Assembly: GCA_031292655.1 (NCBI GenBank) | Contig: JARLGO010000404.1 | Location: 1 to 50,463 of the forward strand | Reading direction: 5' to 3' | Length of the DNA: 50,463 bases | DNA from: Geothrix sp. | GTDB taxonomy: Bacteria > Acidobacteriota > Holophagae > Holophagales > Holophagaceae | Shown: piece after piece, positions 25,445-28,515 of the stretch | How positions within the stretch are numbered: the first letter of the stretch is position 1 | How the letters are laid out: every line of letters starts with the position of its first letter | The notes under the pieces: model-generated | Seen by the model: only the letters and a program-made list of their open reading frames with translations | The model's database searches: none | Told to the model about the DNA's origin: nothing | Made by a program: the position numbers and the translations under genes

Positions 25445-25744
25445 ATGAAGAAGTTCCTCACCACCGCCTTCCTCTTCACCCTGGCCGTCGCCGCCTTCGC
25501 CCAGGGCGCTCCCGCTGCCGCCGCCAAGGGCCTCTTCGAGGGCCAGTTCACGGCCCACATCGCCCTCGCCATCGCCGCCGCCGGTTGCGGTCTGGCCCAG
25601 GGCAAGGCCGTGGCCGCCGCCGTGGAGGGCGTCGCCCGCAATCCCCAGGCCGCCGGCAACATCCGCACCACCATGATCATCGGCCTGGCCCTCATCGAGG
25701 CCCTCGTGATCTACGTGCTCGTGGCCGCCTTCGCCATCAAGTAG
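25445..25744 (+). CDS. atpE: F-type ATP synthase subunit c with signal-peptide-like N-terminus
   Basis: [62 protein letters not shown]; conserved RNP loop and TM2 Glu; N-term [21 protein letters not shown]. Confidence 0.95.
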
Positions 25745-25761
25745 GCCCATCGAGTTCCGCG

Positions 25762-25795
25762 CGGGGCGTCCAGGATCTGGGCGCCCCGTTTCTTT
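25762..25795 (+). terminator. Intrinsic terminator downstream of atpE
   Basis: CGGGGCGTCCAG-GAT-CTGGGCGCCCCG stem with one wobble, followed by TTTCTTT. Confidence 0.8.
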
Positions 25796-25830
25796 ATGAA
25801 CCTTCCGGCAAACCGATACATATTGGAATC

Positions 25831-27000
25831 ATGACTCCCCACTCCATGTTTCCCATGCCCCCCGAAGTCACGCAGGTCATCCTGGGCGGGGGCTCGCCCA
25901 TCGACCTGGACTCCCTGCGGATCCATTCCCCCGGGGAGGCCTGGAACTTCGCCCTCAACTACGGCTACGACATGGGCGTCCCCGTCCAGCGGACCGCCGT
26001 GATGCGGGTCTACGAGGATGCGGTGGACTTCCTGGAGGCGGTGGTGCTGGAGGGCACCAGCCTCCATGTCCCCCTGGAAGTGCGCGATCTCCAGGACCCC
26101 CTCGACCTCCTGGTCTGGGCCTCGGATCGTCCCCGGGACAACCGGGCCCGCTGGTCCTGCGCGGTCCTGCGGGTCATGCACACCCTCTTCCACGTGGATC
26201 ACAACGTGAACCTCCGCTTCCTGCCGGAGATCCAGCGGCAGGTCTTCAGCCGCTACGACCAGTACCTGGTCTGCGAGGAGGATCGCTGGTGCCTCCGCGG
26301 GGCCTACGAGGTGCCCCTGGTGGCCGTGGAACGGAAGGAGAACAAGGATCGCGTGTCCATGCTCCTGAAGATGCTCCACAAGCCCGAGAACGTGGCCGAG
26401 ACCATCTATGACCAGATCGGCATCCGCTTCGTGGCCGAGGACCAGCTCGGGGTGCTCATGGTCATCCGGTTCCTCCTGGACCACCACATCCTGATGCCGA
26501 CCCACATCAAGCCGAGCCGCAGCCGGAACCTGATGATCGACATGGAGGCCCTGGCGGCCTGGAGCGAGTCCATGCCCCCCTATTTCCGGATCCAGGACCT
26601 GGGGCCGGAAGAAAGGAGGGCGCTGAGCGGGACCCTGGCCCTCAAGTCCCCCTCCAAGGATCAGAACCCGTTCTCCAGCAAGGATTACTCTGCCATCCAG
26701 TTCACGGCCCGCACCCTGGTTCGGCTTCCGAGTCCGGCCACCCGGGCCCTAGAAACCCTTCAGGAACGGCTGCAGACTATGGGAGACTCCGAGTTGTCGG
26801 ATCTGGTCCGCATTCCGGAGTTGATCCAGGACCAGGAGGAGTTTACTTTCTTCTTCGCACACGAAGTCCAAGTGATGGAACAATCGGGGTTTCAAAGCTC
26901 ACGATCAGGTCCGGCATCCCACTCAGAATACAAGCAGCGCCAGCGGGATGCCGCCCGGCGGAGAGTGCTTCAGGGAATCCTTCAGGAGGAAGCATGTTGA
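25831..27000 (+). CDS. TIGR04552-like family protein of unknown function with RelA/SpoT-synthetase-like segment
   Basis: VILGGGSPIDLDSL..., PLDLLVWASD...ARWSCAVLRVMHTLFHVDH, VERKENKDRVSMLLKMLHKPENVAETIYDQIGIRFV. Family name is from memory and was not searched. Confidence 0.6.
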   Translation: MTPHSMFPMPPEVTQVILGGGSPIDLDSLRIHSPGEAWNFALNYGYDMGVPVQRTAVMRVYEDAVDFLEAVVLEGTSLHVPLEVRDLQDPLDLLVWASDRPRDNRARWSCAVLRVMHTLFHVDHNVNLRFLPEIQRQVFSRYDQYLVCEEDRWCLRGAYEVPLVAVERKENKDRVSMLLKMLHKPENVAETIYDQIGIRFVAEDQLGVLMVIRFLLDHHILMPTHIKPSRSRNLMIDMEALAAWSESMPPYFRIQDLGPEERRALSGTLALKSPSKDQNPFSSKDYSAIQFTARTLVRLPSPATRALETLQERLQTMGDSELSDLVRIPELIQDQEEFTFFFAHEVQVMEQSGFQSSRSGPASHSEYKQRQRDAARRRVLQGILQEEAC

Positions 27001-27332
27001 ACATCCAGACCCGCCAGTCAGGCAGCGCCTCGGTGGTGTCCATCCAGGGCAAGGTCAATTTCGAGGTGACCGCACAGCTGCGGGACGTGATCCGCGAGAC
27101 CGTGGCCACCGCCCAGCCGAAACTCCTCGCCATCAACCTGGAGGGCGTGAGCTTCATCGATTCCTCGGGGCTGGGCCTTCTGGTCGCCGCCCGCAACAGC
27201 GTGGACAAGTCCGGCGGGAAGCTGCACCTGTGCTGCCTGCCCGCGACCGTGAAGAAGTCCTTCGACCAGACCAACCTCACCAACTACTTCTCCATCTTCG
27301 CCACGGAGCAGGACGCTCTCCGCGGCGCCTGA
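26994..27332 (+). CDS. STAS-domain anti-sigma factor antagonist (RsbV/SpoIIAA-like)
   Basis: SVVSIQGKVNFEVTAQLRDVI...LLAINLEGVSFIDSSGLGLLVAARN; overlaps upstream gene by 7 bp. Confidence 0.9.
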   Translation: MLNIQTRQSGSASVVSIQGKVNFEVTAQLRDVIRETVATAQPKLLAINLEGVSFIDSSGLGLLVAARNSVDKSGGKLHLCCLPATVKKSFDQTNLTNYFSIFATEQDALRGA

Positions 27333-27348
27333 CGGGTCAGCGCGGCGC

Positions 27349-28515
27349 ATGGCCAGGGGCACCGTCCTGGTGGTGGACGATGAAGCGCCCATCCGGGACA
27401 TTCTCAGTTTCTACCTCAAGCGGGCGGGTTACCAGGTCCTGACGGCCGGGGATGGTCTCGAGGCCCTCGGGGAGATGGGCCGCTCCCGGCCCGATCTCAT
27501 CATCTCAGACCTGCGCATGCCCGGGATGACGGGCGACGAGCTGTGCAAGCGCGTCAAGAGCGAGCCCGCCACCCGCGACATCTACTTCATCATCCTGTCC
27601 ACCCTGGATGGAACGGCCTCGCGCATCGGCGGCCTGTCCCTCGGCGCGGACGACATGATTCCCAAGCCCTTCCATGCGCAGGAAGTGCTGGCCAAGGTGG
27701 ACTCGACCTTCCGGCTCATCGGGATGCAAAATGAGATCAAGCGCCAGAATCGGGAGCTGATCACCTTCCAGCGGAAGGTGCAGGAGGAGATGGAGCTGGC
27801 GGCGGCCCTCCAGATGGGACTGCTGCCCAAGCTCCCCGGGAAGGCCCCGGGCTCCCGCTACACCCACCGGTACCTTCCGGCCGCGGGCATCGGCGGGGAC
27901 ATCTACTCGATCCTGCCGCTGCCCGACGGCTGCACGGCCATGATGATCGCGGATGTGAGCGGCCATGGCGTCACCGCGGCCCTCATCTCGGCCATGGTGA
28001 AGACCTCCTTCGAGAACCAGGTCCGGCTCGGCGGCGAACCCCTCGCATGGGCCTACGGCATGAACGAGGACCTCTGCCGATCCACCCTGCCCGAGCAGTT
28101 CGCCACGGCCTGGCTGGGCCATCTGGATCCTGCCTCCAACTGCCTGCGGTACGTGGTGGCGGGCCATTGCGCCCCGCTGCGGATCGTGGGAGGCACCCGG
28201 GGAGGGCTGCAGCGCTCCGAGGTGCTCCGCGGCAAGGGTTTCATGCTGGGACTGGACGAGCAGCTCCCCTTTGTGGCCCACGAGGCAGAGTTCCTGCCGG
28301 AGGATCGCCTGGTCCTGTACACGGATGGCTTGGTGGAAGTGGAACGCGAGGACCGCGGCATGCTGGAGGAGGCCGGCCTGCGGCGAATCTGCGCCGAGCT
28401 GCCCGTGGGCGCCGAGGAGGCGGCCGACGCGGTCATCTCCCAGGCCCGGACCTACAACCACCCGGCCCCCTTCGTGGACGATGTGACCCTGGTGATCCTC
28501 GACCGGCAGGCCTAG
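27349..28515 (+). CDS. Response regulator with PP2C (SpoIIE/RsbU-type) phosphatase output domain
   Basis: REC: VLVVDDEAPIRD...LIISDLRMPGMTG...GADDMIPKPF; PP2C: GIGGDIYSILPLPDGCTAMMIADVSGHGVTAALISAMVK...DRLVLYTDGLVEVE. Confidence 0.93.
   Translation: MARGTVLVVDDEAPIRDILSFYLKRAGYQVLTAGDGLEALGEMGRSRPDLIISDLRMPGMTGDELCKRVKSEPATRDIYFIILSTLDGTASRIGGLSLGADDMIPKPFHAQEVLAKVDSTFRLIGMQNEIKRQNRELITFQRKVQEEMELAAALQMGLLPKLPGKAPGSRYTHRYLPAAGIGGDIYSILPLPDGCTAMMIADVSGHGVTAALISAMVKTSFENQVRLGGEPLAWAYGMNEDLCRSTLPEQFATAWLGHLDPASNCLRYVVAGHCAPLRIVGGTRGGLQRSEVLRGKGFMLGLDEQLPFVAHEAEFLPEDRLVLYTDGLVEVEREDRGMLEEAGLRRICAELPVGAEEAADAVISQARTYNHPAPFVDDVTLVILDRQA

Follow-up and report, generated by a model that had tools for sequence, protein, structure and literature searches.

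A predicted divergent RelA/SpoT-type synthetase encoded together with a STAS and REC-PP2C partner-switch pair in Holophagales

We analysed a 50,463-nt stretch of DNA from Geothrix sp. (contig JARLGO010000404.1 of assembly GCA_031292655.1), referred to as the window, in which three genes follow atpE on the forward strand. As contig 88, the window belongs to a draft genome of 3.3 Mb with 5.7% contamination; sequence comparison places its close relatives among Geothrix and further members of the Holophagaceae. The locus comprises the following features:

25445..25744, + strand: atpE (ATP synthase subunit c), an open reading frame and the upstream neighbour outside the three-gene module
25761..25796, + strand: intrinsic terminator 3′ of atpE, with a 13-bp stem and a T-rich tail, which sets the three genes apart from the atp operon
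25831..27000, + strand: gene 1, encoding a TIGR04562/TIGR04552 family protein of 389 aa (family profiles, PDB profile search, AlphaFold2 model), with a predicted N-terminal helical domain (about residues 1–145) and a predicted divergent RelA/SpoT synthetase (SYNTH) domain (about residues 146–380)
26344..26427, + strand: putative donor-site segment of gene 1, K172..S176..K180..D194..G197..R199, from alignment to 1vj7 (RelSeq K243, S247, K251, D264, R269)
26863..26865, + strand: predicted catalytic Glu of gene 1, E345 (RelSeq E323, RelP E174), in FFxxEVQ, with a GxASHxxYK motif downstream
26984..27000, + strand: Shine-Dalgarno sequence AGGAGG and 7-nt stop/start overlap ATGTTGA between gene 1 and the STAS gene
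26994..27332, + strand: STAS-only anti-sigma-factor-antagonist-like protein, 112 aa (Pfam, TIGR00377), containing FIDSSGLG with Ser57/Ser58
27349..28515, + strand: REC-PP2C (RsbU/SpoIIE-type) phosphatase, 388 aa (Pfam), ending in no C-terminal HATPase domain

The arrangement described by the first-pass annotation, three same-strand genes after the atpE terminator with a 7-bp overlap at the first junction and a 16-nt gap between the STAS stop and the REC-PP2C start at the second, agrees to the base with the coordinates of the open reading frames; only the length of the gene 1 product, given there as 390 aa, is corrected by our count of 389 codons plus stop. The STAS start codon (26994–26996) lies inside gene 1, whose TGA occupies 26998–27000, so that both are read jointly as ATGTTGA, and AGGAGG (26984–26989) is placed shortly 5′ of the STAS start. 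The identities proposed for the second and third proteins also hold: the STAS gene product scores 80 bits against Pfam STAS and also matches TIGR00377, and the third protein scores 86 bits against Response_reg and 142 bits against SpoIIE/PP2C.

The terminator-like hairpin after atpE spans 25761–25789 and is followed by the T tail. This single terminator hit in the window is no more than shuffled sequence gives (1.0 ± 1.0); a GC-rich stem and T-run 3′ of atpE recur, with stem bases changed, in nearly all Holophagaceae loci. Since this hairpin is found again with different stem sequences, gene 1, the STAS gene and the REC-PP2C gene probably make up a unit of their own, and we consider it very likely that they share one transcript. 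A sigma-70 promoter scan found none. A CCGATA-like motif (GCCGATA), resembling the −10 element of sigma-28 promoters, is present about 20 nt 5′ of gene 1 (about 25800–25830) in most Geothrix loci (L029–L082), and FliA-type matches were detected in all seven Holophagaceae genomes tested, above the cut-off in six and with a partial best match in the window genome. We do not claim a sigma-28 promoter before gene 1, because no convincing −35 element was detected and the motif is not found in deeper relatives.

Over its full length the gene 1 product matches TIGR04562 with 416 bits (cut-off 140) and TIGR04552 with 390 bits (cut-off 125), two profiles of an uncharacterised NCBIfam family to which no function is assigned there. 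Against Pfam RelA_SpoT (PF04607), the window protein scores 13.6 bits (E = 0.083), below the gathering cut-off of 27, and a phmmer search of the PDB with this single protein gave no related match. Taken at that score, the likeness could be a chance sub-threshold match in a protein unrelated to alarmone enzymes, a reading that we regard as extremely improbable, since orthologues exceed the Pfam cut-off across the full domain and alarmone synthetases lead both the PDB profile search and the fold search while the controls are negative. Several Bdellovibrionota members of the family reach the PF04607 cut-off, with 27.0 to 34.1 bits, and one of them aligns to model positions 3–112 of 113. Searching the PDB with the family profile placed the small alarmone synthetase RelQ/YwaC at the top (E = 1e-3), followed by matches that include RelSeq, mycobacterial Rel and RelA; the alarmone synthetases were matched as two collinear pieces. 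Profile–profile comparison to long RSHs returned the identical two pieces with values of 1.4e-5 and 1e-4, where the controls (STAS, PP2C and reversed profiles) gave 0.1 to 0.5.

An AlphaFold2 model of the gene 1 protein built from 38 diverse sequences reached a pLDDT of 84.6 and a pTM of 0.77; it supersedes, together with the fold search based on it, an earlier and poor model from 11 close sequences (pLDDT 63.5). All 50 of the 50 best PDB matches of the model are alarmone synthetases or their relatives, with probabilities up to 1.00 and E values of about 1e-3. The similarity in fold is local, because TM-scores do not exceed 0.51 and rmsd values are large (12 to 18 Å), and the extra N-terminal domain and an insertion probably explain why the match is only local. 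By predicted fold and sequence profiles, the RelA/SpoT likeness is real and spans the whole synthetase domain; the RelA/SpoT-like segment that the first-pass annotation had put forward conditionally is thus genuine. Gene 1 thus encodes a predicted distant cousin of the (p)ppGpp-making enzymes, and we file it in the SYNTH superfamily and not as a (p)ppGpp synthetase.

A single paper naming the TIGR04562/TIGR04552 family was found (PMC9888234). There, the TIGR04552 gene DOE51_RS08710 is reported to have lost one base, a deletion that reached high frequency in one evolved Bdellovibrio population (its Table 1), and six of six evolved populations are reported to survive starvation better. Since all six improved and the deletion is listed for one, we draw no link between the two. 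Neither Bdellovibrio nor Geothrix is mentioned in the main text of Atkinson 2011 (PMC3153485).

Active-site residues were mapped by alignment to 1vj7 and their roles taken from PMC7983052. K172, S176, K180, D194, R199, Q290, E345, Q347, Y367 and K368 are invariant in 130 sequences from two phyla, and Y286 is nearly so (48/50 in Bdellovibrionota). By this mapping, D194 and E345 would be the two metal-binding and catalytic carboxylates (RelSeq D264 and E323; RelP D107 and E174), K172 and K180, eight residues apart, the putative phosphate-binding lysine pair, and R199 one of the two predicted adenine-stacking arginines (RelSeq R269). Y286, placed from motif order, may be the tyrosine that stacks on the acceptor base (RelSeq Y308). 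The position of the second adenine-stacking arginine (RelSeq R241) is variable in the family (E170 in the window protein), with an invariant lysine, K169, one residue away; the G-loop His is replaced by Gln, and the acceptor loop is rebuilt, extra residues being inserted between the Arg-rich strand and the NPxS..Y motif. The site thus appears to have kept its donor half while its acceptor half was rebuilt, from which we infer that the enzyme is probably active and that its acceptor may not be GDP or GTP. That the gene 1 product is catalytically active is, judged from these residues, a likely proposition.

The same substitutions (the missing R241 equivalent, the lost G-loop His, the rebuilt acceptor loop) could instead mark a catalytically degenerate SYNTH domain serving as a sensor of ATP or ppGpp that feeds energy status to the STAS switch, the more so as at least one full-length Rel is encoded in the genome anyway. 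Invariance of the catalytic Asp, the catalytic Glu and both lysines in 130 sequences of two phyla is unexpected for a pseudo-enzyme, and many genomes with the gene 1 family are altogether devoid of STAS; we therefore judge the sensor unlikely. With a full-length Rel present, gene 1 is not the sole alarmone enzyme of the genome. A second RelA_SpoT protein is found in the window genome on a 6-kb contig (L164, G000:C509), with 40% identity to the reference SYNTH domain used, and may be foreign given the 5.7% contamination of the draft. One Geothrix strain carries an additional canonical small alarmone synthetase, RelP/RelQ-like (L160, G027:C1:309000-310800), and a 1.2-Mb genome of the same family (G182), by its look a reduced one, has no RelA_SpoT, TIGR04562 or STAS match.

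Compared with RelP/RelQ and the SYNTH domain of Rel, gene 1 shares the predicted fold, the catalytic Asp and Glu, the lysine pair, one adenine-stacking Arg, the acceptor-site Tyr and the ExQ and H..YK motifs. It differs in its extra N-terminal helical domain, the insertion, the absence of an R241 equivalent and the change of the G-loop His to Gln.

The two downstream proteins have the features of a partner-switch pair, a STAS protein with a phosphorylatable-type Ser and a PP2C domain with metal ligands. Ser57 and Ser58 are invariant in the Holophagales set, in which mean column conservation of the STAS protein is 95%, as are D54 and K106 of the REC domain and D184, D202, D326 and D377/D378 of the PP2C domain. 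Among the proteins encoded around this locus in Holophagales, the STAS protein is also the most strongly conserved, with 74–100% identity to the window copy, exceeding AtpB in nearly every locus; such conservation suggests that it may have several binding partners.

The pair shares with RsbV/RsbU partner switching the DSSGLG serines, the PP2C metal ligands and the REC input; in contrast to that system, the unit has no adjacent RsbW kinase or sigma factor. Neither is encoded within the three genes, and no HATPase_c_2 or FliA/WhiG match lies on the window contig among the matches listed for the window genome, in line with the absence recorded in the first-pass annotation. This absence means little, because RsbW-like and REC-HATPase (HATPase_c_2) proteins are encoded elsewhere in the window genome; proteins of these two types, encoded at other sites of Holophagaceae genomes, are candidates for the missing kinase. 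In two of the loci fetched (L187:2270-3178 and L189:2024-2938), a REC-HATPase_c_2 protein adjoins thioredoxin and ribB-like genes, an arrangement conserved in Holophagaceae, and both proteins are among the best matches in these loci to the operon kinase of the sister family described below.

The neighbourhood was then compared across genomes. Within the phylum sample, the gene 1 family is confined to the window's own family, where 25 of 27 genomes contain it; two weak matches elsewhere proved to come from ordinary Rel proteins, in their synthetase domains. Genome contigs were also scanned separately; this second scan, which shares some genomes with these 27, so that the two counts are not independent, yielded 55 Holophagales loci (L029–L083) and one partial locus (L104), and the order gene 1–STAS–REC-PP2C is present in all 56. 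Nearly all loci whose contig reaches far enough have atpE upstream of gene 1. Of the 54 loci in which it could be measured, 50 retain the exact 7-nt overlap, including loci with gene 1 identity as low as 54%, and gene 1 is probably translationally coupled to the STAS gene in Holophagales. Within Geothrix, synteny taken by itself carries little weight, since the neighbouring genes (NuoN, AtpB/E, HldD, DMT) are likewise well preserved; in deeper relatives HldD and other genes are lost from the neighbourhood and the trio stays.

Two cases show the switch genes at this site without gene 1. The complete Holophagaceae genome G097 lacks gene 1 and reads NuoN–atpB–atpE–STAS–REC-PP2C, with HldD farther along; a transposase-like open reading frame lies between HldD and the PP2C gene (L178, G097:C1:4483000-4493000). 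In a tree of STAS and PP2C proteins, the termite-gut Holophagales that carry gene 1 fall outside G097 and its relatives, so that loss of gene 1 in G097 is the likeliest course. In the sister family, the operon consists of an RsbW-like kinase, STAS and REC-PP2C (L179:1044-3128, L180:1208-3283), the core of a partner switch, and the kinase occupies the position that gene 1 holds in the window.

The converse situation is found in Bdellovibrionota. In the Bdellovibrionota-type phylum of genome G298, 46 of 58 genomes contain the gene 1 family, essentially as a single copy, and its neighbours are thioredoxin-like, beta-propeller, cytochrome c maturation, aminotransferase and Lol/Bam-like genes. No STAS gene was found near the homologues in the loci tested. 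A SpoIIE gene beside one homologue (L101) is on the opposite strand and is the sole adjacent case in 21 loci; we treated it as chance. In 17 of 26 Bdellovibrionota genomes with the gene 1 family no STAS domain was detected anywhere at E ≤ 1e-5, and in those that have one, it lies on another contig or tens of kilobases from the gene 1 homologue. Because each persists without the other (in G097 and in these 17 genomes), neither the enzyme nor STAS-PP2C needs the other in general; and because the family exists elsewhere without the switch, the coupling of the two is a lineage-specific, local arrangement and not a general module. The first-pass annotation had proposed gene 1 as an additional input or effector of the switch. 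This proposal is partly supported: gene 1 is linked to STAS and REC-PP2C in 56 of 56 Holophagales loci, whereas a role as a general input or effector is not supported, given the Bdellovibrionota homologues and the persistence of STAS-PP2C without gene 1 in G097 and the sister family.

The genomic distribution bears on two further explanations. The combination of a SYNTH-only enzyme with an overlapping small gene recalls toxic small alarmone synthetases (toxSAS), the STAS gene then being the antitoxin. We rejected this pairing and hold it to be highly improbable: STAS is absent from 17/26 Bdellovibrionota genomes and adjacent to the homologue in none tested; the family is single-copy and widespread there; G097 retains STAS without the enzyme; the STAS protein carries the conserved DSSGLG phospho-site and comes with a phosphatase partner; and PADLOC gives no match. 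The products may, on the other hand, be operon mates only, an active SYNTH synthetase sharing promoter and translational coupling with STAS-PP2C for use under common conditions and without physical or regulatory contact. This explanation fits the Bdellovibrionota, where the enzyme has no STAS/PP2C neighbours, as well as G097, which keeps STAS-PP2C at this site but not the enzyme, and the sister family, in which a kinase stands in its place. Against it, the exact overlap in 50/54 loci points to selection for a fixed ratio, as is often seen for interacting products. We regard operon membership without contact as quite conceivable, if somewhat short of probable.

A precedent for contact comes from Pseudomonas, where the STAS protein HsbA, itself controlled by a REC-PP2C phosphatase, has the diguanylate cyclase HsbD as a binding partner (PMC6482189). 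HsbR-HsbA-HsbD and CrsR-CrsA (Pseudomonas, Shewanella) share with the window pair the combination of REC-PP2C and a STAS protein. In HsbR and CrsR there is a third domain, of kinase/anti-sigma type, whereas the window protein ends after PP2C; it is not a REC-PP2C-HATPase three-domain protein, and an HsbR/CrsR-type regulator was ruled out. HsbD, moreover, is a diguanylate cyclase and gene 1 a predicted SYNTH enzyme. By analogy to HsbA-HsbD, a direct link between the enzyme and STAS is possible, one that neither enzyme nor switch would require in other lineages. A regulatory contact between the two at this locus remains a tentative suggestion, and we consider it improbable that the Holophagales STAS switch directly controls, or obeys, a SYNTH enzyme making a pyrophosphorylated nucleotide other than (p)ppGpp. 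If it did, a phosphatase cascade would set a nucleotide second messenger, and a sigma factor would not be the sole output.

The explanation that we favour overall, with a fair degree of confidence, is that in Holophagales a divergent SYNTH pyrophosphotransferase is expressed along with a partner switch and may share its regulation. Transcription of the three genes would form a unit of its own after the atp terminator, with gene 1 translated in a fixed ratio with STAS and the REC-PP2C phosphatase following. The gene 1 product, with its additional helical domain at the N-terminus and its acceptor-loop insertion, would transfer pyrophosphate from ATP to an acceptor that need not be GDP or GTP. 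A histidine kinase would phosphorylate REC, upon which the PP2C domain would dephosphorylate the STAS serine, counteracted by a kinase of RsbW-like or REC-HATPase type whose gene lies at another site of the genome. The state of STAS would set the output of the switch, and alarmone synthesis, co-expressed with it, may be tuned by STAS binding.

The uncharacterised TIGR04562/TIGR04552 family is thus likely to consist of alarmone-type enzymes with a changed acceptor site. It is widely distributed, as a single copy, in Bdellovibrionota, to which the predatory Bdellovibrio belongs, and is present in nearly all sampled genomes of Geothrix and other Holophagaceae. This identification makes a direct assay of the pyrophosphorylated nucleotide possible, and at the Holophagales locus the possible wiring of a partner switch to a second-messenger enzyme can be put to the test.
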